This document shows, one piece after another, positions 17,698 to 40,204 of a stretch of DNA of 44,035 nt (the stretch's first letter is position 1; each line of letters starts with the position of its first letter). The notes under the pieces were generated by a model. That model did no database searches, had not been told where the DNA came from, and saw only the letters and a program-made list of their open reading frames with translations. The position numbers and the translations under genes are program-made. Source of the DNA: Rhodospirillaceae bacterium (GTDB lineage: Bacteria; Pseudomonadota; Alphaproteobacteria; Rhodospirillales; Casp-alpha2); the NCBI GenBank assembly GCA_018698795.1, contig JABIPG010000039.1:1-44035 (forward strand). The letters are read 5' to 3'.

Positions 17698-17711
17698 TTG
17701 ATCGATATCAA
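17698..17711. promoter_or_regulatory. FNR-type box TTGAT-CGAT-ATCAA
   Basis: Perfect match to the FNR/Dnr consensus TTGAT-N4-ATCAA. Confidence 0.8.
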
Positions 17712-18708: not shown

Positions 18709-18876
18709 ATGACAGACAACACACCGGAAACGGGTGGCGAGGACGAGCGCGTGCATCCCATGCAGGCGCTACTCGACAATCCATTTTTACTTCTTTTCAT
18801 TGGCGTCGCCGTACCGGCGGTGCTGTACACCATTTGGGGTGTCATGGAAGTTGCCATGATCCCGATTGCACAATAG
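18709..18876 (+). CDS. Small single-TM protein (55 aa), first gene of the eNOR-like operon
   Basis: Hand translation MTDNTPETGGEDERVHPMQALLDNPFLLLFIGVAVPAVLYTIWGVMEVAMIPIAQ*; RBS-like ggaggaatgggg; below the ORF-track length cutoff. Confidence 0.7.
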   Translation: MTDNTPETGGEDERVHPMQALLDNPFLLLFIGVAVPAVLYTIWGVMEVAMIPIAQ

Positions 18877-18889
18877 CGGGGAGGGAAAC

Positions 18890-19420
18890 ATGGCACTCAC
18901 ACCACCCGAGTCACGGCACTGGTACAAAGAGCCGTTGCATAAGATGGAGGTCGTTTGGATCACCATCGCGTTTCTTTGGGGCTTGGTGATGTTTTTCACC
19001 ATGGTCTATTGGCACATTAACGGCACGCAGAACTTGTCGAACGAGGCTTATCGGGTGATCCCCGAGGAGTACGGCGAAAAGGTCGAAGCCTTTGCCGAGA
19101 AATACAAGGTGCGTGAGGAAGCGGACATCCCCGTGGTCAAACCGCCAGCCGGTAGCGACGTCTACCTGTTGGGGCGGCTGTGGGAATGGTGGCCGATTCT
19201 GGAGCTGGAAAAGGGCAAGACCTATCGGCTTCATATGTCCTCAATGGACTGGCAGCACGGCTTCTCGTTGCAGCCCGCCAACATCAATATCCAAGTCCAT
19301 CCCAACTACGAGATGGTGTTGACCATGACGCCGGACAAGGCGGGTGAGTATGGCATCGTCTGTAACGAATATTGCGGCGTCGGCCATCATCAGATGCTCG
19401 GCAAGATATACGTGAAATGA
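18890..19420 (+). CDS. Heme-copper oxidase subunit II with CuA site (eNOR-like subunit II)
   Basis: One N-terminal TM; CuA motif CNEYCGVGHHQM (CxExCx3Hx2M); upstream His in SSMDWQHGFSL. Confidence 0.88.
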   Translation: MALTPPESRHWYKEPLHKMEVVWITIAFLWGLVMFFTMVYWHINGTQNLSNEAYRVIPEEYGEKVEAFAEKYKVREEADIPVVKPPAGSDVYLLGRLWEWWPILELEKGKTYRLHMSSMDWQHGFSLQPANINIQVHPNYEMVLTMTPDKAGEYGIVCNEYCGVGHHQMLGKIYVK

Positions 19421-19431
19421 GGGAATGACCG

Positions 19432-21132
19432 ATGGCTATTGATACCACTTATCGCGTCTGTCCCGAAACCGGTCTTAAGGTTTTCTCGCAGACGGAAAAA
19501 CTCATCAAGGTGAACGCCGTTGTGGCGATCGTCTTCCTGGCTATCGGCGGGCTGTTTGGCCTGTTGGTCGCCTTAACCCGCTGGCAGGCGGTGCATTTCC
19601 TGCCCGCTGAAATGTTTTATCTGGCGTTGACGGCGCACGGCGCTGATGTGTTGTTGTTCTGGATCCTGTTTTTCGAAATTGCGATCCTCTACTTCGCCTC
19701 ATCGGTATTGTTGAATTGCCGATTGGCGGCTCCACGGTTTGCTTGGCTGGCATTTGTTCTCATGTTGGTTGGTGCATTGATGGCCAACGTGGCGGTGTTG
19801 CAGGGCGAATCGAGCGTCATGTTTACCTCCTACGTGCCTATGAAGGCAGCGCCACACTTTTATCTAGGCCTGATCATATTTGCGGTCGGGGCGCTGATAG
19901 CGGTGTTTGTGTTCTTCGGGACACTGGTCGTTGCCAAACAGGAAAAAACCTATGAGGGCTCGGTGCCGTTGGTGACCTTCGGTGCTGTAACCGCGGCGGT
20001 GATTGCCGTTTATACAATCGCTTCCGGCGCTATTATCCTGATCCCCACATTCTTGTGGTCGGTCGGGTATATTACGAGCATCGATTCGGTGACCTACAAG
20101 TTGGTCTGGTGGGGCATGGGGCACTCCAGCCAACAGATCAACGTCGCGGCGCATGTGTCGGTCTGGTACATGATTGCGGCCCTGTTGCTGGGCGCCAAAC
20201 CGTTGAGCGAGAAAGTCAGTCGCACGGCGTTTTTGCTGTATATCCTGTTCTTGCAACTGGCGTCGGCTCACCACTTGTTGGTGGAACCGGGCATCAGTTC
20301 CGAATGGAAAGTGTTCAACACATCTTATGCCTTCTATCTGGCGGTGTTGGGCTCCATGATCCACGGCATGAGCGTTCCGGGTGCCATGGAAGCGGCACAA
20401 CGCAGGCGCGGCTATACGCAAGGGATGTTCGAGTGGCTCCGAAAGGCGCCATGGGGTAACCCTGCCTTCTCGGGTATGGCTATGTCCGTGGTGATGTTTG
20501 GCTTCTTCGGCGGCATCTCGGGTGTCGTCTTGGGGGCTGAGCAGATCAACCTGATCATGCACAACACCATCTATGTACCGGGTCACTTCCACGCGACCGT
20601 GGTTGCCGGCACAACGATGGCGTTCATGGCCGTTACCTACTTGGTGATCCCGCTGATTTTCCAAAAGGAAATCCGCTTCAAAACCATGGCTAAGTGGCAA
20701 CCGTACCTGTTCGGTATCGGTGTCGGCGGCATCTCGTTGTTCATGATGGGCGCCGGAACGTTGGGCGTATCGCGTAGGCACTGGGATATCACCTTCTCCG
20801 ACGCGGCATTGACCTTCGACTATCCGCCAGCGGCATTCCTGATGCTGGGCCTGAACGGTATCTTCGCCATCATCGCCAGCATTGGCGGCATCATGTTCAT
20901 CTTGATTGCCGTGGCTTCGGTGTTCGCCGGCAAGAACCGCGACGAAGCGGCATGCAAAGCCGATCCGTGCATCCTGACGGATGGCGGCGGTGCTGCGGTC
21001 TCCACTTATGGCGGCGAAGGCACGCTCAAGTTGCCGGGTACGGTGACGTTGGTAACGATCTTCTTCGTTTCCTTCGTGCTCTACTTCTTCGTCAACTGGA
21101 AGTATCTGTCCGAGGTTTGGCCGCTTAGTTAG
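19432..21132 (+). CDS. Heme-copper oxidase superfamily catalytic subunit, predicted eNOR-type nitric oxide reductase
   Basis: HCO features: helix-II-like LTAHGADVLLFW, WWGMGHSSQQINVAAH (Gln four residues after His where A-type oxidases have HPEVY), ASAHHLLVEPG, VPGHFHATVVAG. Confidence 0.85.
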   Translation: MAIDTTYRVCPETGLKVFSQTEKLIKVNAVVAIVFLAIGGLFGLLVALTRWQAVHFLPAEMFYLALTAHGADVLLFWILFFEIAILYFASSVLLNCRLAAPRFAWLAFVLMLVGALMANVAVLQGESSVMFTSYVPMKAAPHFYLGLIIFAVGALIAVFVFFGTLVVAKQEKTYEGSVPLVTFGAVTAAVIAVYTIASGAIILIPTFLWSVGYITSIDSVTYKLVWWGMGHSSQQINVAAHVSVWYMIAALLLGAKPLSEKVSRTAFLLYILFLQLASAHHLLVEPGISSEWKVFNTSYAFYLAVLGSMIHGMSVPGAMEAAQRRRGYTQGMFEWLRKAPWGNPAFSGMAMSVVMFGFFGGISGVVLGAEQINLIMHNTIYVPGHFHATVVAGTTMAFMAVTYLVIPLIFQKEIRFKTMAKWQPYLFGIGVGGISLFMMGAGTLGVSRRHWDITFSDAALTFDYPPAAFLMLGLNGIFAIIASIGGIMFILIAVASVFAGKNRDEAACKADPCILTDGGGAAVSTYGGEGTLKLPGTVTLVTIFFVSFVLYFFVNWKYLSEVWPLS

Positions 21133-21245
21133 CGGCATGTGGTTCGGAGCGTCGGTATTCTCCCCCCATCCGATGCCGACGTTCCGACCACGCCTTCGGG
21201 CTCATAAAGATCCCCCGGTTTTTGGATGGGGCGGGAGATCGAAAG

Positions 21246-22112
21246 ATGCGGAACGCAGCAGCCGTTCTCTATAACGTCTTCAAGATCAGGATTGGTCTGG
21301 CTATCTCCATAACGGCGGTGGCCGGTCTTGCTGTTACACAAGGGCGCGTCATCAGCGCGGCTGAGGGCTTCTATCTGGCGCTTGCCGTTCTCGGCGCCAG
21401 TGCCGCAGCCGGCGCTTTCAATCATTTGGTTGAACGCGACTTGGATGCCCGAATGAAGCGGACCCGCACCCGACCTTTTGTCACTGGTGCGTTTCGCGCA
21501 GGTTGGCCATGGGTGTTGGGGATTTTTACGCTACTCGCCGTCTCTGTGGGTTTGGCGTGGTGGACCATCAATCCCGTCGCCGCGCTGTACGTATATTTGG
21601 GCGCCGTCGTTTACGGCTATGTTTATACGGTGCTGCTGAAACGCCGCACGGTCTGGAACATTGTTATCGGTGGCCTCGCCGGCAGTTTTGCTGTGCTCGC
21701 TGGTGCTGCCGCGGTCGACCCGACACCCGGTCCGCTACCGTTGGCCTTGGCGGCGATACTGTTTCTTTGGACACCTCCACATTTTTGGAGCCTCGCCATG
21801 GCGTTGCGCGATGACTATGCGCGCGCCGGCGTGCCAATGCTGCCCGTTGTATTAGGCAATGATCGGGCGGCGCGCGTCATCCTTGCGCATACGGTGATGC
21901 TGGTTGCGGTCTCAATGACGCCGCTCGCTTTGGGGTTGGGATGGCTGTACGGTGTGTGTGCAGTGGTCGGCGGCGGCTGGTTCATTGTCACCAGTTGGAA
22001 ATTGACCCAGCGCCCGGACCGAGACACCGCCATGCGTAATTTTTTCGCCTCACTGGTGCAGTTGGTATTGGTTTTGGCCGGCTGCATAATTGAAGGATTC
22101 GGCCTTGTCTAA
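21246..22112 (+). CDS. ctaB: Protoheme IX farnesyltransferase (heme O synthase)
   Basis: UbiA-family motifs GAFNHLVERDLDARMKRTRTRPFVTG and WTPPHFWSLAMALRDDYARAGVPMLPVV. Confidence 0.92.
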   Translation: MRNAAAVLYNVFKIRIGLAISITAVAGLAVTQGRVISAAEGFYLALAVLGASAAAGAFNHLVERDLDARMKRTRTRPFVTGAFRAGWPWVLGIFTLLAVSVGLAWWTINPVAALYVYLGAVVYGYVYTVLLKRRTVWNIVIGGLAGSFAVLAGAAAVDPTPGPLPLALAAILFLWTPPHFWSLAMALRDDYARAGVPMLPVVLGNDRAARVILAHTVMLVAVSMTPLALGLGWLYGVCAVVGGGWFIVTSWKLTQRPDRDTAMRNFFASLVQLVLVLAGCIIEGFGLV

Positions 22113-22965
22113 ACTGTCGCGGTTGTTCTGCACAATTTTGCTGCTGGCGTTTGTTGCCGGCGGGGCTGATGCCGCGACACAAAACCTGAATGAAGATTCC
22201 ACTAAAGGCCTGACCAAAGGACAGGCAGACCCCGTATTCGACGGCGATGCAGCCATGGAGAAAAGCCGCCAGGCGGCTGGAAACAACGTTGCTGGGCTGC
22301 GGTTTGTCGATGCGCAAGGCAAGCGGGTCAATTTGATCGATTATCAAGGCAAGCCATTGATCATCAATATGGTTTACTCCAGCTGTGCGCATTTTTGCGG
22401 CGTCTTGGCCCGCAACCTGATCGAAGCCGTTGAATCCGCCAACGGCATATTGGGCAAGAATGCCTTCACCGTGATTTCCGTTGGTTTCGACACTAAGGTC
22501 GACACACCAAACCGTATGCGCCAATGGGGTGATAGCCAAGGCATCGATTTCGACAATTGGCACATGCTTGCCGGTGATGCATTGAATGTGCGCAAGCTTG
22601 GTGACGCCATCGGGTTTACCTGGGCGCCGTCACCAATCGGGTTCGACCATACGGCGCAGACCACGTTGGTTGATGCGGCGGGCCGCGTCGCCTACCAGGT
22701 TTACGGCAGCAATTATGACCCGCCGATTTTGGTCGAACCTTTGAAACGCATTGCGCTCGGTGAGCGCCTGTCAATGACGAGCCTCGATGGGCTCGTGAAC
22801 CGGGTGCGGCTTTTTTGTACGATATATGACCCCAAAAGTGGGCGTTATGAATTCGACTATTCGATCTTGATTTCAATCCTTATCGGCACATTAATTCTCG
22901 GCAGTGTTGGCACAATTGTGGCGCGTGCGTGGTGGCGTGAATACCGCGCTCAACACCCAGCCTGA
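22090..22965 (+). CDS. SCO1/SenC family copper chaperone with C-terminal TM
   Basis: MVYSSCAHFCGVLARNLIEAV (CxxxC), FDHTAQTTLVDAAGRV; signal peptide; C-terminal TM. Confidence 0.87.
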   Translation: MKDSALSKLSRLFCTILLLAFVAGGADAATQNLNEDSTKGLTKGQADPVFDGDAAMEKSRQAAGNNVAGLRFVDAQGKRVNLIDYQGKPLIINMVYSSCAHFCGVLARNLIEAVESANGILGKNAFTVISVGFDTKVDTPNRMRQWGDSQGIDFDNWHMLAGDALNVRKLGDAIGFTWAPSPIGFDHTAQTTLVDAAGRVAYQVYGSNYDPPILVEPLKRIALGERLSMTSLDGLVNRVRLFCTIYDPKSGRYEFDYSILISILIGTLILGSVGTIVARAWWREYRAQHPA

Positions 22966-23002: not shown

Positions 23003-24610
23003 GTGGATATCCGTTATCCCCTAAAAATGCTTTTTATGTGGTTGGAAGGTTGGTTCGACCGCATATTTACGCCCGCCTGGAACCCGTTCTATTGTCTGGG
23101 CGCCCTTGGATATTTCTATTTCTGGGTGGTCGCTGCATCGGGGCTCTATCTCTATATCTTTTTCGACACCGGCATCCCGCAGGCCTTCGAATCGGTCGAA
23201 TATATGACCCACGATCAATGGTATCTGGCGGGTGTCATGCGCTCTTTGCATCGTTACGCGTCGGACGCCATGGTGGTGATGATGATGATGCATCTGGTGC
23301 GCGAGTTCGCCTTCGACCGCTACCGCGGCGGTCGCTGGTATTCGTGGGTGACGGGCGTGCCGATGATCTGGTTGGTATTCGCTGCCGGTATTACCGGTTA
23401 CTGGCTGGTGTGGGATGAATTGGCGCAGTACATCTCGATTGTCACCACCGAGTGGCTTGATTGGTTACCGATCTTCGGTGAGCCCATTGCACGCAACTTC
23501 ATGGCACCTAGCCACTTCGATGGGCGGTTCTTTACGCTGTTGGTGTTCTTGCACATCGCGCTACCGCTGATCTTGTTGTTCCTGATGTGGTTCCATTTGC
23601 AGCGCATCAACTATTCCAAAACTAACCCGACGCGCGGCCTTGCCGTCGGCACCATGCTGATGCTTTTGGTGTTGTCGTTGTTGGAACCCGCCGTCAGCCA
23701 TCCCATTGCGGACCTGACTAAGGTGCCGGTGGAACTCAAGCTCGATTGGTATTATCTTTGGGCTTACCCCATGATCGAAGTGCTGGGGGCGGGCTTCATG
23801 TGGTGGTTTGCCTTCGCCGGCACGATATTCTTGATGTTGATCCCGTGGTTACCGCCGCGCCGCCGCCGCGAACGCGCGGTGGTCAATCTGGAGAACTGCA
23901 ACGGATGCACGCGGTGCTACGACGATTGCCCGTTCAGTGCCATTGAGATGGTGGCACGTACCGACGGCGCATCATTCGACCGCGAGGCCAAGGTCGATTC
24001 CGAGCTTTGTGTCAGTTGCGGAATCTGTGCCGGTGCGTGCCCGACAGCGACACCGTTCCGCCGCGCCAGTGATCTGGTTCCGGGTATTGATTTGCCGGAG
24101 CACCCGATTTCTCTCGTTCGAGAGCACACCGAAGCGGCGGCCGAGGGGCTAAGCGGCACCGACAGAATCATCATCTTCGATTGCGAGCACGCGCTCAACA
24201 CCGGCAAGCTCAATCTTGCCAATACAGGTTCGGTGGAACTGCGCTGCACGGCCATGCTACCGCCCAGCTTTATCGATTTCGTGCTTAGCCGCGATATGGC
24301 GGACGGCGTGGTGCTCACGGGTTGCCGTGAAGGCCAGTGCCAGTATCGGCTCGGTAACGACTGGGTGGACGGGCGGCTGGAAGGCACGCGCGACCCGATG
24401 CTGAGAAAGCGTGTCCCGCGCGAGCGGTTGTTGAAAACCTGGGCCTCGCCCACGGATTGGCGGGCCTTTGAACGCGAGGTTGAGACGTTCCGCGAACAGC
24501 TCAAAGCGCTGCCTGAGGGTGACAAGCCCGGTGGTCCGAAGGGCGGCCTGAAGGGATTGCCCGGTGGACGCAAAGATAAACCGTCATCGACCGAGGAGAC
24601 GGCGGCATGA
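23003..24610 (+). CDS. Tri-domain fusion: membrane cytochrome b (b6-like) + 2x[4Fe-4S] ferredoxin + MvhD-like iron-sulfur domain
   Basis: His pairs SLHRYASDAMVVMMMMHLVREF and FLHIALPLILLFLMWFHLQRI; CNGCTRCYDDCP and CVSCGICAGACP; MvhD-like IIFDCEHALN...LRCTAMLPPSFIDFVLSRDMADGVVLTGCREGQCQYRLGNDWVDGRL. Confidence 0.87.
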   Translation: MDIRYPLKMLFMWLEGWFDRIFTPAWNPFYCLGALGYFYFWVVAASGLYLYIFFDTGIPQAFESVEYMTHDQWYLAGVMRSLHRYASDAMVVMMMMHLVREFAFDRYRGGRWYSWVTGVPMIWLVFAAGITGYWLVWDELAQYISIVTTEWLDWLPIFGEPIARNFMAPSHFDGRFFTLLVFLHIALPLILLFLMWFHLQRINYSKTNPTRGLAVGTMLMLLVLSLLEPAVSHPIADLTKVPVELKLDWYYLWAYPMIEVLGAGFMWWFAFAGTIFLMLIPWLPPRRRRERAVVNLENCNGCTRCYDDCPFSAIEMVARTDGASFDREAKVDSELCVSCGICAGACPTATPFRRASDLVPGIDLPEHPISLVREHTEAAAEGLSGTDRIIIFDCEHALNTGKLNLANTGSVELRCTAMLPPSFIDFVLSRDMADGVVLTGCREGQCQYRLGNDWVDGRLEGTRDPMLRKRVPRERLLKTWASPTDWRAFEREVETFREQLKALPEGDKPGGPKGGLKGLPGGRKDKPSSTEETAA

Positions 24611-25122
24611 TGGGCAAAGACATGAACGTCTTGAAACTTTTGGGCCAGGCTGTCGTATACGGTGTGTTCGCCATTGTCGTCGGCTATCTCGCGACTCGAC
24701 CGAGCTGGACCTATTCCGATGGCTCCAAGGCTCGGCTTTTGGTGAGCTTCACGCACGGCGGCAAGGCGGCCGGCGGCTGCAGAAAGCGCTCATCGAAGGA
24801 GTTGGCGAAATTGGCGCCGAACATGCGCAAGGCGACCATATGTTCGCGCGAGCGGGTATCGCTGTTGTTTGAAATGAGCATCGACGGCGAGATGGTGCAC
24901 CGCGAGACGCTGGTGCCGACGGGGATGCGGAGCGACGGCCCGTCGCGCACCTATCAGAAGTTCGCGATCTCCGCAGGCCGGCATGACTTAGAATTCAAGT
25001 TGCGTGATACGGATCGGACCGAAGGTTTTGACTATGTGCGCAAGGAAACCGTGGAGATGAAGCCTGGGCAAAATCTGGCTGTCGATTTCAAGGCTTCTCA
25101 GGGCGGTTTCAAGTTCGAATAA
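24607..25122 (+). CDS. Membrane-anchored hypothetical protein of the eNOR-like locus
   Basis: N-term TM (LLGQAVVYGVFAIVVGYLA) then soluble domain; overlaps the upstream stop. Confidence 0.75.
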   Translation: MMGKDMNVLKLLGQAVVYGVFAIVVGYLATRPSWTYSDGSKARLLVSFTHGGKAAGGCRKRSSKELAKLAPNMRKATICSRERVSLLFEMSIDGEMVHRETLVPTGMRSDGPSRTYQKFAISAGRHDLEFKLRDTDRTEGFDYVRKETVEMKPGQNLAVDFKASQGGFKFE

Positions 25123-25164: not shown

Positions 25165-25563
25165 ATGCCAATCATAGAATGGCGAGACGATTTCAAGACC
25201 GGCGACGCATCCGTCGATCATGAGCATCAAGAGCTGATCGAGCTGCTCAACACGCTCTACGACTCGATGGTCGAAGGACCGCCTGCGGATGACACCGTGC
25301 GCGGGTTGGGCGAAGTGTTCGTGCGCATCTCGGCGCACTTCGCGCTGGAAGAACGTGAAATGCGAGAGGCTAAGTACGCCGACTACCCAGCTCACAAGGA
25401 TGACCACGAAGATTTGCTCGACCAGATCCGCGACATCATGGATGCCTACGAGGTTGGCGTCTTCGGTGATCAACGCGATGCATTCGGCGATAATTTGCAG
25501 AACTGGTTCGTCAATCACTTCAAGACCCACGATGCCAAGCTGCATCGGGTCTTCGGGCACTAA
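25165..25563 (+). CDS. Bacteriohemerythrin
   Basis: DHEHQELIELLNTLYD, HFALEEREMREAKYADYPAHKDDHEDLL, WFVNHFKTHDAKL: canonical His/Glu/Asp diiron ligands. Confidence 0.93.
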   Translation: MPIIEWRDDFKTGDASVDHEHQELIELLNTLYDSMVEGPPADDTVRGLGEVFVRISAHFALEEREMREAKYADYPAHKDDHEDLLDQIRDIMDAYEVGVFGDQRDAFGDNLQNWFVNHFKTHDAKLHRVFGH

Positions 25564-27017: not shown

Positions 27018-27031
27018 TTGATTCACATCAA
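27018..27031. promoter_or_regulatory. FNR-type box TTGAT-TCAC-ATCAA
   Basis: Perfect consensus match in the hemA / crp-fnr divergent intergenic region. Confidence 0.8.
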
Positions 27032-29101: not shown

Positions 29102-29527
29102 TCACTGGGCGACCTTAACGTAGCCCCGCATGTTTTCTTGTTCCCAATGAGGTCCACAGAGATACGGGTAGGCGCCGCTTTCAGTGAAGGTGTGCTGCCA
29201 AACTTCTTCGGGGAAAAACCGTTCGGATTCCGCGATGCCGGCTTCCTTCATCCACACACTGTGGCTGGTGCGCCGGTCGACATTGATCCAACGCACCGTG
29301 GTGCCGGGTTTCACGGTCAGGTTGGCGGGGCAGAAGTTGTACTTATACAACTTCACGATCACCACGCCCGGCTCTGCTTTATAGTCCGGGAACATTTTTT
29401 CGAACCGCGCCTCCGCCTTGGCGCAGGCTTTCTTGCGCTCTTCGGTGACCTCGACCTCGCCGCCGGCGATTGCCGGCAGGGCAATTGCCGACAAAGTGGC
29501 TGCCAAAAGGCTACTTCTTAACCACAT
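29102..29527 (-). CDS. Periplasmic cupredoxin-domain protein
   Basis: Signal peptide; VKLYKYNFCPANLTVKPGTTVRWINVDRRTSHSVW...GAYPYLCGPHWEQENMRGYVKV: type 1 Cu-like ligands. Confidence 0.85.
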   Translation of the reverse strand: MWLRSSLLAATLSAIALPAIAGGEVEVTEERKKACAKAEARFEKMFPDYKAEPGVVIVKLYKYNFCPANLTVKPGTTVRWINVDRRTSHSVWMKEAGIAESERFFPEEVWQHTFTESGAYPYLCGPHWEQENMRGYVKVAQ

Positions 29528-31265
29528 TGATCTCCGCCTCCGGATTGTCCAGGGCCAGCCTGTACTCCAGCGACACGTGGTGGAAGCGCGCCGTGGTGTA
29601 ATCGTCGTGGATGGCGAAGCCGACCGTGTAGGTCTTGCCGGGCTCGAATGTTACCCCACCGGGCTGCGTGGCGGCCAGTGGGCGGGTCAGGGTGACCGTC
29701 CAGGTGCCGTTTTCCAACGAGCCGGTGCCGGTGATCTTCTGTGATGGCTGCAGTTTACGATCTGCCATCACCAAACCTTCTTCGACCGTATTGTCCTTGG
29801 ACTTGTAGCGGAACAGATCCATGTACGCGCCCTCGGCGTATTTCGCATCGAGATCAGCCTTGTCGATCAGCTTGTCCCAAGCACCGCGCGGCTTGCCGTT
29901 CTTGCCCTTGTATTCAAGCTTGGTACGGCTGCCCTTGGTGTACTTGGTGACGCCGTCCGTGAGATCAATGACTTTTGCCGCTTCGCTGGCGGATAGCACA
30001 TCGGCTTTGGGGGCGTCGGGCATGTAGCGCGAGTCATGATGGCAGGTTACCCAGCAGCCCAGTTGCTCGGCGTCTTCAACCTTGCCGTCGTCAATCATGA
30101 CGGCGAGCTTGATTTGATTATCCGGGTCCATCTTGCCGCCATCGGCGAACGGTGCCGGTGTGTGCCCACTATCGGGCCATTGGAACTTCAGCGTCATGTT
30201 GGTGCCGTCGTGTACGGCCTGCACGGCAACCTTGATGGAGCCGCGCTTACCCGGGATTGGGGCCGGTTCGACTTTTTCGCCACCGACGATCTTTTTACCC
30301 ATGTCGGACTGTTCGCCCTTGTGGCATTCCTGGCAACGGTCACCGGCGCGGCGTACTGCGCGGCCACCACCGTGGTCAGAGCCTTTGAGCACCCACTCCA
30401 ACGAAGCTTGGCCCGGATACAGCATTGTCACATCAACCGGCTCTACGCCGCTCATGTCAGGACCACCGCTGGCAGGCGCGGCCGCAACCGGTGTGGCAGC
30501 AGCTTTCGCCATTTCCGCAGCTTTGGCCGCTTCCGCGGCTTTCTTGGCGGCGGCTTCTTCTGCGGCTTTTTTCGCAGCTGCTTCGGCGACCTTTTTAGCC
30601 GCCGCGGCGTCGGCAGCTTTTTTGGCTGCGATAGCCGCTTCCTCGGCCTTCGAGATCAGGCGGCGCGAATCGGCTTTGCCGTCGTAGGGGTCATCGTCCT
30701 CGCCCAACAATTTATGTACGGCTCGATGCGCGATACCTTTGTGGCAATCGATGCAGGTCAGGCCCTCGGATTGTGCGTCCTTGTGGCGTTTGGTGGCGCG
30801 GCGTTTCTGGATGCCGGTTTTCATGGCATCCCATGAGTGGCAGTTGCGGCATTCACGCGAGTCGGTTTGCTTCATCGCCCTCCAGACGTTCTTGGCCAGC
30901 GTCAGACGTTTATCCTCGAACTTCTCCGGTGTATCGATGGTGCCGAGCGCCTTGTGCAGAAGTTCGCCTGAGGCCTGAACCTTACGGACAAGCTTGTGCA
31001 CCCACGGGTCCGGCACATGGCAATCGGAACAGGTCGCCTGCACACCGGTGCGGTTCTGGTAATGGATGGTTTCTTTGTATTCAGCGTAGACGTTTTCCTC
31101 CATCTCGTGGCACGAGATGCAGAATTCCATGGTGTTGGTGGCTTCCATAGCGGTATTGAAGCCGCCCCAGAAGATAACGCCTGCAAAAGCGCCGACTACG
31201 AAAATGGAGCCCCAGGTGTAACGAACCGTCGGCTGCCAGAACCAATTCCAAATCCGTCCAATCAT
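29511..31265 (-). CDS. NapC/NirT tetraheme-type cytochrome fused through an Ala/Lys-rich linker to a c-heme / EB_dh-like heme-binding domain
   Basis: CISCH, CSDCH, CRNCH, CIDCH (NapC/NirT); linker AEEAAIAAKKAADAAAAKK...; CQECH; CWVTCHHD (CX3CH); EB_dh-like NGTWTVTLTRPLAA...YTVGFAIHDDYTTARFHHVSLEYRLAL. Confidence 0.85.
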   Translation of the reverse strand: MIGRIWNWFWQPTVRYTWGSIFVVGAFAGVIFWGGFNTAMEATNTMEFCISCHEMEENVYAEYKETIHYQNRTGVQATCSDCHVPDPWVHKLVRKVQASGELLHKALGTIDTPEKFEDKRLTLAKNVWRAMKQTDSRECRNCHSWDAMKTGIQKRRATKRHKDAQSEGLTCIDCHKGIAHRAVHKLLGEDDDPYDGKADSRRLISKAEEAAIAAKKAADAAAAKKVAEAAAKKAAEEAAAKKAAEAAKAAEMAKAAATPVAAAPASGGPDMSGVEPVDVTMLYPGQASLEWVLKGSDHGGGRAVRRAGDRCQECHKGEQSDMGKKIVGGEKVEPAPIPGKRGSIKVAVQAVHDGTNMTLKFQWPDSGHTPAPFADGGKMDPDNQIKLAVMIDDGKVEDAEQLGCWVTCHHDSRYMPDAPKADVLSASEAAKVIDLTDGVTKYTKGSRTKLEYKGKNGKPRGAWDKLIDKADLDAKYAEGAYMDLFRYKSKDNTVEEGLVMADRKLQPSQKITGTGSLENGTWTVTLTRPLAATQPGGVTFEPGKTYTVGFAIHDDYTTARFHHVSLEYRLALDNPEAEINVVKK

Positions 31266-37455: not shown

Positions 37456-38655
37456 ATGTTCCGGATTACGCAGTATATGAAAGAGGTGCTGGACCCGACG
37501 CCGATCGGGCCGACGCGCAATCCGCCGGGACCGGTGGTGATCTGGAACCTGATCCGGCGCTGCAACTTGACGTGCAAGCACTGTTACGCGATTTCCGCCG
37601 ACACGGATTTCCCGGGCGAGCTTTCCACCGACGAAGTTTTTACTGTCATGGACGACTTGAAAGGTTTTTGCGTGCCGGTGCTGATTTTGTCCGGCGGCGA
37701 GCCGTTGTTGCGTCCCGACATCTTCGAGGTCTCAAAACGTGCCAAGGATATGGGGTTCTATGTCGGGCTGTCGACCAACGGTACGCTGATCGACGAGACG
37801 AAGATCGAAGACATATCGGCCATTGGCTACGACTACGTCGGTATCTCCATCGATGGCATCGGCGCCACGCACGATAAATTCCGCCGCCTCGATGGGGCGT
37901 TTGAGAAATCCATGCACGCCGCGCGTCTTTGCCGCGAACACGGGATCAAGGTGGGGCTGCGCTTCACCATGACGCTCGATAACGTGCATGAACTGCCGGA
38001 TTTGCTTCAGCTTTCCGACGATGAGGGCATTGATAAGTTCTACCTCTCGCACCTCAACTACGCCGGGCGCGGAAACAAAAACCGTGGCGACGACGCGCAC
38101 TTCGCCGCCACCCGCCAAGCCATGGACCTGTTGTTCGAGACCTGCGAAGCGGACTTGCGGGCCGGGCGCGAGCGTGAGTTCGTCACCGGCAACAACGATG
38201 CCGACGGTGTCTACATGCTGCATTGGGTGCGCCAAAACCACCCGGACCGCGCCGAGCATATCGAAGCGAAACTCAAGCAGTGGGGCGGCAATTCGTCGGG
38301 CGTCAACGTCGCCAATATCGACAATCTGGGGCAGGTGCACCCAGACACCATGTGGTGGGATTACACGCTGGGAAACGTCAAGGATCGCCCGTTCTCAGAC
38401 ATCTGGGCCGATACTTCGGACCCGATCATGGCAGGCCTCAAGGCCCGCCCGCGCACCATCAAAGGACGCTGCGCAGATTGCTCGCACTTCGCCATTTGCG
38501 GCGGCAATACCCGGGTGCGCGCGTTGCAGGTTACCGACGATCCGTGGCAGGAAGACCCCGGTTGCTACCTCACGGACACCGAGATCGGGCTTGATCAAGC
38601 GTCGGAGCGCGTCACCGTCACCCCCTATCGGAAGAAACGCCATGCGGCTGCTTAA
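37456..38655 (+). CDS. nirJ: Radical SAM heme d1 biosynthesis protein NirJ
   Basis: RRCNLTCKHCYAISADTDFPGELSTDEVF; LSGGEPLLRPDIFE; C-term CADCSHFAICGGNTRVRAL. Confidence 0.95.
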   Translation: MFRITQYMKEVLDPTPIGPTRNPPGPVVIWNLIRRCNLTCKHCYAISADTDFPGELSTDEVFTVMDDLKGFCVPVLILSGGEPLLRPDIFEVSKRAKDMGFYVGLSTNGTLIDETKIEDISAIGYDYVGISIDGIGATHDKFRRLDGAFEKSMHAARLCREHGIKVGLRFTMTLDNVHELPDLLQLSDDEGIDKFYLSHLNYAGRGNKNRGDDAHFAATRQAMDLLFETCEADLRAGREREFVTGNNDADGVYMLHWVRQNHPDRAEHIEAKLKQWGGNSSGVNVANIDNLGQVHPDTMWWDYTLGNVKDRPFSDIWADTSDPIMAGLKARPRTIKGRCADCSHFAICGGNTRVRALQVTDDPWQEDPGCYLTDTEIGLDQASERVTVTPYRKKRHAAA

Positions 38656-40204
38656 GATCACTATCTTTTCCGCCCTGGCGGCGGTTGCCTCAACCTCGGC
38701 CAACGCCGAACCGAACGCGCAAATTCTCTACCAGCAACACTGCGCCGCATGCCATGGCGACGATCGCTTGGGGCAAATCGGCCCGGCCTTGTTGCCCGAA
38801 AACCTGCGCCGGCTGCGGAAAAAACGCGCCGCCGCCGCCATTGCCAAGGGCCGCCCGGCAACGCAAATGCCGGCGTTCGAGAAGACGCTGGCCAAGGCCG
38901 ATATCGATGCCCTTGTGACTTTTATTTTCAAGCCGTTACCCGAGGTCCCCGTTTGGGGCATGGCCCAGATCGACGCGACGCACGTCGTTCACAACAAGCT
39001 CGCCGACCTGCCCAACAAGCCTCTGCACAAGGCCGACCCGTTAAACCTGTTCACGGTGGTTGAGACCGGCGACCACCACGTAACTATCCTCGATGGTGAC
39101 AAGTTCGAGCCGATATGGCGGTTTCCGTCGCGCTTTGCCTTGCACGGCGGCGCCAAGTATTCGCCCGACGGGCGCTTCGTCTATTTCGGCTCGCGCGACG
39201 GCTGGGTCTCGAAGTACGACCTGCACAACATGAAGCCGGTGGCGGAAATCCGCGCCGGCATCAACACCCGTAACATCGCCATCTCATCGGACGGCAAATG
39301 GGTGATGGTGGGTAATTTTCTACCCCATTCGCTCATCGTCCTTCACGCCGATGACTTGCGCCCATTCCGGGTGATTGAGGTCGGTGACGGCAAGGGGACG
39401 ACGTCGAGGGTGAGCGCCGTTTACGATGCCCGCCCGCGTCGAAGTTTCGTCGCCGCCCTGAAAGATATGAAAGAAATCTGGGAGCTTTCCTACGACCCGG
39501 ACGCCGAGCCCGTTTACGGCAATTTCGTGCACAACTACCGCAAGGGCCAGGTGGAGGGCGTAGTGGTCGGCAAGCAACCCTTCGCCGTGCGTCGCATCAA
39601 GGTCGACGACTACATGGATGATTTTTTCTTCGATCCCACTTATGCCGAGGTCATGGGCGCGGGGCGCACCGCTAAAAAAGGCATCGTCTACAACCTCGAT
39701 GCCCGCAAGAAAATCGCCGAACTAGAGCTTTCGGGCATGCCGCATTTGGGCTCAGGCATTGTCTGGAAACTCGACGGCCGCATGGTGATGGCGACGCCGC
39801 ATCTGCGCGAGCCGGCAGTCAGCGTTATCGACATGGAAAGTTGGAAAACCATCAAACGTATCGAGACGTTGGGGACCGGGTTTTTCATGCGCAGCCACGA
39901 AAACTCCAACTATGCCTGGGTCGATGTGTTTTTTGGCAAACACAAAGACGTCATGCACGTCATCGACAAGCGCACGCTGGAGATCGTCAAGACGCTGAAA
40001 CCTGCGCCCGGCAAAACCGCGGCCCACGTCGAGTTCACCCGCAACGGCTCACATGCTTTGGTCAGCATCTGGGAGAAGCAAGGTGCATTGGTGATTTACG
40101 ACGCCAAAACCTTGGAAGAGGTCAAACGTATCCCGATGAAAAAACCGTCCGGCAAGTACAACGTCTATAACAAGATCAACTTGTCGGAAGGCACGTCACA
40201 TTAG
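38642..40204 (+). CDS. nirN: NirN (NirS-like c/d1 protein, dihydro-heme d1 dehydrogenase family)
   Basis: CAACHGDDRLGQIGPALLPENL; d1-type propeller; VYNKINLSEGTSH; ATG 38642 overlaps the nirJ end. Confidence 0.92.
   Translation: MRLLKITIFSALAAVASTSANAEPNAQILYQQHCAACHGDDRLGQIGPALLPENLRRLRKKRAAAAIAKGRPATQMPAFEKTLAKADIDALVTFIFKPLPEVPVWGMAQIDATHVVHNKLADLPNKPLHKADPLNLFTVVETGDHHVTILDGDKFEPIWRFPSRFALHGGAKYSPDGRFVYFGSRDGWVSKYDLHNMKPVAEIRAGINTRNIAISSDGKWVMVGNFLPHSLIVLHADDLRPFRVIEVGDGKGTTSRVSAVYDARPRRSFVAALKDMKEIWELSYDPDAEPVYGNFVHNYRKGQVEGVVVGKQPFAVRRIKVDDYMDDFFFDPTYAEVMGAGRTAKKGIVYNLDARKKIAELELSGMPHLGSGIVWKLDGRMVMATPHLREPAVSVIDMESWKTIKRIETLGTGFFMRSHENSNYAWVDVFFGKHKDVMHVIDKRTLEIVKTLKPAPGKTAAHVEFTRNGSHALVSIWEKQGALVIYDAKTLEEVKRIPMKKPSGKYNVYNKINLSEGTSH

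Follow-up and report, generated by a model that had tools for sequence, protein, structure and literature searches.

A cytochrome b-[4Fe-4S]-FlpD fusion that travels with eNOR in Pseudomonadota and may link NO reduction to cytosolic electron carriers

Introduction

eNOR, an enzyme that produces N2O, was recognised only recently, and its electron supply has, to our knowledge, been little explored. The replacement of the active-site Tyr by Gln in subunit I serves as the criterion for this enzyme (PMC8756737). In alphaproteobacteria, it was described as a ba3-a1 enzyme with SCO (PMC6431628), and ba3-a1 has been equated with eNOR (PMC8879329).

Here we describe a fusion protein encoded next to an eNOR, whose parts resemble several known systems. 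The cytochrome b of b6f and bc1 complexes (PF00033, PF13631) shares with it helices A-D with two His-x13-His pairs, helices E and F, an Asp-Trp pair in the ef loop, and the fold. Unlike those cytochromes, however, the fusion has no PEWY motif, its operon contains no Rieske or c-type partner, and a predicted cytosolic Fe-S/FlpD extension is added. MvhD/FlpD proteins of solved complexes (5odc, 9sw2) correspond to the C-terminal part, where residues 407-503 align with profile positions 27-122 and the GCxxGxC region is conserved, but the first 26 profile positions are unaligned and the domain is joined to a membrane cytochrome b. The best NCBIfam matches are ExtP and ExtQ of the selenite/tellurite operon (fusion residues 29-204 and 217-293), which are instead two separate proteins, a b-type cytochrome and a membrane protein, and whose scores fall far under the curated cut-offs (107.6 against 290 bits and 27.9 against 150 bits).

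A similar architecture is on record for a Chloroflexi ORF, RME88945.1, to which cytochrome b6, FlpD and DMSOR-beta-like Fe-S domains are assigned (PMC8756737, Table A3); compared by its table entry only, it differs from the fusion in an extra heme c domain. This entry is the single mention of a cytochrome b-FlpD fusion that we found in the literature (PMC8756737). For the combination tied to eNOR, together with the NAD(P)H-type twin presented below, we found no description in the accessible literature, and a mention in the PNAS 2024 eNOR paper is possible. Thus, the individual domains are known, and their combination appears, within the accessible literature, to be new.

Results

The window analysed here is the whole stretch of 44,035 nucleotides from a Rhodospirillaceae bacterium (contig JABIPG010000039.1). 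At 23003..24610 on the plus strand, it carries an ORF of 535 aa that starts with GTG and has no internal stop. An earlier note, made from the letters alone, had read this ORF as a tri-domain protein, and Pfam bears this out with all domains above their cut-offs. Cytochrome_B (PF00033; E 2.1e-22; 80.3 bits against a curated cut-off of 27.2) covers residues 24-203 (23072..23611, +), comprising helices A-D with the bis-heme ligands H83, H97, H184 and H198. Fer4 matches twice within residues 292-349 (PF00037, 1.7e-10; PF12838, 3.5e-9; both above the curated cut-offs), where two [4Fe-4S] motifs at residues 296-349 (23888..24049, +) supply C299, C302, C305 and C309, and C336, C339, C342 and C346. 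The C-terminal domain, on whose match to MvhD the earlier reading depended, was recovered as FlpD/MvhD (PF02662; 3.6e-13; 50.0 bits against 22.3) at residues 407-503 (24221..24511, +), and the MvhD chains of solved complexes, 9sw2_D and 5odc_D, correspond to it.

We aligned 52 homologues with the full architecture (identity 46-92%). All 52 retain the four histidines as two His-x13-His pairs, the eight Fer4 cysteines and four cysteines of the FlpD part, namely C394, C415, C441 and C446, with C394 just ahead of the Pfam match. The four heme-ligating histidines are likewise invariant when NAD(P)H-type relatives are added to the FlpD type (86 sequences). The four FlpD cysteines would fit one predicted [2Fe-2S] cluster. 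An AlphaFold model of the fusion reached a mean pLDDT of 83.6, and its best Foldseek matches are the cytochromes b of bc1 and b6f. Lys and Arg residues number 3 in the N-terminus, 3 in the B-C loop, 2 in D-E and 5 after helix F, and 0, 1 and 2 in the remaining loops. By the positive-inside rule, this distribution supports a cytosolic location of the Fe-S/FlpD arm. We also considered the heme c_n of b6f, whose ligand is Cys35; the window's protein has C31 there, but only 6 of 68 family sequences do, and the idea was dropped.

The neighbouring genes belong to an eNOR operon. Subunit I (19432..21132, +; PF00115) reads GHSSQQ with Gln at the Tyr position, a motif present in the linked loci too, and subunit II (18866..19420, +) is a cupredoxin with the full CuA ligand set of H, C-x3-C, H and M, the real start of which may be an ATG 24 bases further in. 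On these two features, the neighbour, which the earlier note had called eNOR-like, holds as an eNOR by its sequence. Directly before subunit II lies a 55-aa ORF with a single TM helix (18709..18876, +). Many eNOR loci show its motif LLDNPFLLLFxGVxxPxxxYxxWG in the corresponding position, those of Thermus and Thermomicrobium in a looser form, and the ORF is probably a small eNOR subunit. Following subunit I, in conserved operon places, are the heme o synthase CtaB (21222..22112, +; PF01040) and a SCO/SenC copper-assembly protein (22090..22965, +; PF02630).

The gene after the fusion, which overlaps it by 4 bases, encodes a 171-aa partner protein (24607..25122, +) whose gene adjoins the cytochrome b gene in almost all loci, whichever arm type the latter carries. 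According to its model (pLDDT 92), the partner consists of a single N-terminal helix and a periplasmic beta domain, and alignment shows H50, C58 and C79 to be invariant. These residues suggest a disulfide or a metal site on the periplasmic side. The protein gave no Pfam match above cut-off, has no NCBIfam family, and found no convincing relative with Foldseek (best E 1.6e-3).

This gene arrangement allows the fusion to be viewed as a maturation or repair factor, which passes cytosolic electrons to the periplasm for the reduction of Cu(II), of the CuA thiols or of a modified heme while eNOR is assembled, with SCO and the 171-aa protein as its periplasmic partners. CtaB and SCO, with which the fusion is grouped, are both assembly genes, the partner offers an invariant His and two Cys, and eNOR has a CuA site that needs assembly. 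A parallel exists in the polyferredoxin CcoG/FixG, which serves cbb3 oxidase. Among 46 related loci, the order eNOR II-eNOR I-CtaB-SCO-fusion-171-aa protein is shared by alphaproteobacteria, gammaproteobacteria and one locus of Magnetococcales; it is also seen on a plasmid of Defluviimonas, the only one among the plasmid records to carry the full fusion. This conserved order speaks for the fusion as a part of the eNOR system. Other aspects of the distribution speak against a maturation role. In four Magnetococcales genomes, an iscS/nir region holds the genes of the fusion and of its 171-aa partner, and eNOR lies elsewhere in the genome in all four; CtaB and SCO stay beside eNOR, away from the gene whose product would be their companion. 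In addition, the eNOR loci of Thermus and Thermomicrobium, which have the Gln, hold no fusion gene nearby, which counts both against a general maturation role and against the fusion as the dedicated electron arm of the enzyme. The fusion is thus not a universal eNOR subunit and looks like an addition made in Pseudomonadota. Of the matches on Haloarcula plasmids, the one that was aligned (GH36) carries Tyr and is therefore an oxygen reductase of the ba3 type.

Within Pseudomonadota, the association is tight. Among 281 genomes of the order, the fusion occurs in 61, eNOR subunit I in 59 and both in 57, in 56 cases on one contig; among 398 genomes of the phylum, the corresponding numbers are 20, 20 and 19. 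The two exceptions in the phylum survey concern a contig that ends directly after SCO (G362) and one that is just 5.3 kb long (G402). Fisher tests gave p values of 4e-52 for the order and 3e-30 for the phylum, which are descriptive because kinship among the genomes is ignored. Stronger evidence comes from the genomes in which the genes are unlinked and from the exchange of the cytosolic arm described below. Homologues usually separated from eNOR or denitrification genes had been named in advance as an outcome that would count against the link to NO reduction, and in both surveys the homologues occur almost always with eNOR. The proposal that the fusion transfers electrons in the membrane and is linked to NO reduction thereby gains support, and we consider it almost certain that the fusion belongs functionally with eNOR in Pseudomonadota.

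The eNOR operon of G599 contains two cytochrome b fusions, one of the FlpD type and one carrying Fer2, FAD_binding_6 and NAD_binding_1 domains. The cytochrome b core of this second type (P0003, L122) is 45-53% identical to that of the FlpD type, and it shares the operon place and the 171-aa partner, whereas an NAD(P)H reductase arm replaces the two [4Fe-4S] motifs and FlpD. In the order of G599, the second one surveyed (250 genomes), the complete NAD(P)H-type fusion was found in 18 genomes, eNOR in 18 and both in 17. At 13 of the 18 NAD(P)H-type loci, the fusion lies within or next to the eNOR operon, mostly together with the 171-aa neighbour; for two others (G713, G784), the contig also carries eNOR and a FlpD-type fusion, and the contigs of the remaining three are short. 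One genome (G691) has the FlpD type only. Conversely, G699, a single contig with 99% completeness, has eNOR and the NAD(P)H type only, with no FlpD domain anywhere, and G767 shows the same pattern at 87% completeness. In a tree of the cytochrome b cores, one change of arm suffices, with modest support (73/68), and repeated swapping, which we had considered, is not required.

This natural exchange of arms supports the view that cytosolic carriers supply the b-hemes with electrons for eNOR. In this family, NAD(P)H-FAD-[2Fe-2S] modules usually act as electron donors, which favours that direction, but such reductase modules are in principle able to work both ways, which weakens the case for the fusion as an electron arm. 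The NAD(P)H version lends weight to the cytosolic donor of the earlier note. Operons that hold two parallel versions with different donors are also better suited to electron supply than to assembly, and taken with the distribution above this leaves a maturation or repair role rather improbable in our view. A second, divergent heme-copper subunit I-like protein of ~460 aa, 24-28% identical to eNOR subunit I, was seen directly after the cytochrome b and 171-aa genes in the order of G599 and in several gammaproteobacterial loci. Its sites include L122:5127-6650 (-), L055:12055-13461 (+), L059, L061, L047 and the Magnetococcales loci L086-L089, and its His pair of helix VII looks degenerate.

Discussion

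The earlier note saw no PEWY Qo motif in the fusion, which is literally correct. The protein nevertheless has helices E and F with an ef loop, and the PEWY position is occupied by LDWY (residues 247-250; 23741..23752, +), with LDW(Y/F) as the family motif. In a profile alignment, this motif falls on the PDWY of a Rieske-linked cytochrome b, and the Asp248-Trp249 pair is found in 86 of 86 sequences across both arm types. A quinone site may therefore be retained at the Asp-Trp pair, and such a site would permit electron flow in the reverse direction, a point that counts against a one-way electron arm. No Rieske protein and no cytochrome c1 or f was found among the scanned operon genes. The end opposite the cytosolic donor could be eNOR itself, a periplasmic protein or the quinone pool that the earlier note had proposed.

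If it were the pool, the fusion would be a quinone reductase or valve that feeds electrons from NAD(P)H or Fe-S in the cytosol into the quinones, and its link with eNOR would reflect co-regulation in denitrification only. The cytochrome b/b6 fold with Asp-Trp at the Qo position and the cytosolic donor arm are what such an enzyme would have. A tie to one type of NO reductase in alpha-, beta-like and gammaproteobacteria and in Magnetococcales, persisting even where the genes are unlinked, nonetheless exceeds what a pool enzyme would need, and complex I already fills this role in such organisms. We judge this explanation unlikely. Alternatively, quinol might be oxidised at the Qo-like LDW(Y/F) site without a Rieske protein. 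eNOR would receive one electron, and the second would travel via the b-hemes into the cytosolic arm, where NAD(P)+ or a low-potential carrier would be reduced. NO reduction would then drive reverse electron transport, and cytochrome b and the NO reductase would form one machine. The acid in the ef loop is invariant, the cd region GYWLVWD is b6-like, and it is mainly in bifurcating systems that FlpD domains are known. On the other side stand an operon with no Rieske protein and the missing HdrA partner. RuBisCO, which we examined as a rationale for reverse flow, is not significantly associated (11 of 20 genomes against 5 of 20, p=0.11), and we dropped it. Reverse or bifurcating flow of this kind seems quite improbable to us.

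We favour, tentatively and at slightly less than an even chance for the mechanism as a whole, a role of the fusion in Pseudomonadota as a transmembrane subunit dedicated to electron transfer in the eNOR system. In this mechanism, a soluble cytosolic reductant would give electrons to the FlpD [2Fe-2S] site, from which they would pass over the two [4Fe-4S] clusters to the heme b near the cytosolic face and then to the heme b on the periplasmic side. The latter would feed NO reduction by eNOR, either directly or via the CuA subunit, the 171-aa partner or a quinone bound to the cytochrome b. We infer the direction of flow, the order of cofactors, any involvement of quinone, the contact with eNOR and the place of eNOR as final acceptor. 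The full CuA site in eNOR subunit II weighs against the proposal, since a cytochrome c could serve the enzyme without the fusion.

A further point against the proposal is that the FlpD arm yielded no cytosolic partner: no HdrA, hydrogenase or formate dehydrogenase for it was found, in line with the earlier note. The HdrA flavoprotein region, sought in 10 genomes, occurs in one (G020, with one HdrA-like gene) and is absent from the other nine, including the window's own, which is 84% complete and has no second FlpD. FlpD therefore seems to work here as an Fe-S wire outside the classical HdrA complex. If an electron-transfer role is true, NO reduction in many proteobacteria, including magnetotactic ones, is wired to cytosolic redox carriers besides cytochrome c, and energy-yield estimates for eNOR denitrifiers change. 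The genes would also serve as markers for eNOR operons that annotation pipelines label as cytochrome oxidase. The pair of FlpD and NAD(P)H arms makes the question of the donor directly testable, because the donor type of the NAD(P)H version is known.

The surroundings of the operon bear on one more possibility, that the protein is a membrane sensor of redox state or NO. A bacteriohemerythrin (25165..25563, +; HHE, PF01814) follows the 171-aa gene and is the conserved next gene in most alphaproteobacterial loci, and Crp/Fnr regulators are also neighbours. The fusion, however, has no signalling output domain, every ligand needed for electron transfer is invariant, and its paralogue has all parts of an NAD(P)H reductase. 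The redox-sensing role that the earlier note had allowed for thus found no support, and we regard it as very improbable. Perfect TTGAT-N4-ATCAA boxes of the FNR/NNR type lie at 17698-17711 and 27018-27031, each at the start of a Crp/Fnr-type regulator gene or close to it; ahead of the eNOR operon, no FNR-type box was found within two mismatches. The opposite part of the window carries nirS, a NapC/NirT-like cytochrome, NnrS and nirF/nirJ-like genes. At 29511-31265 (-), adjoining a cupredoxin and nirS, a NapC/NirT tetraheme domain is joined to an ethylbenzene-dehydrogenase-like heme b domain (PF09459). Finally, an ORF of 738 aa at 37988-40204 (+) combines cytochrome c and cytochrome d1 domains (NirN/NirS-like) and adds another d1-type protein to nirS and nirF.
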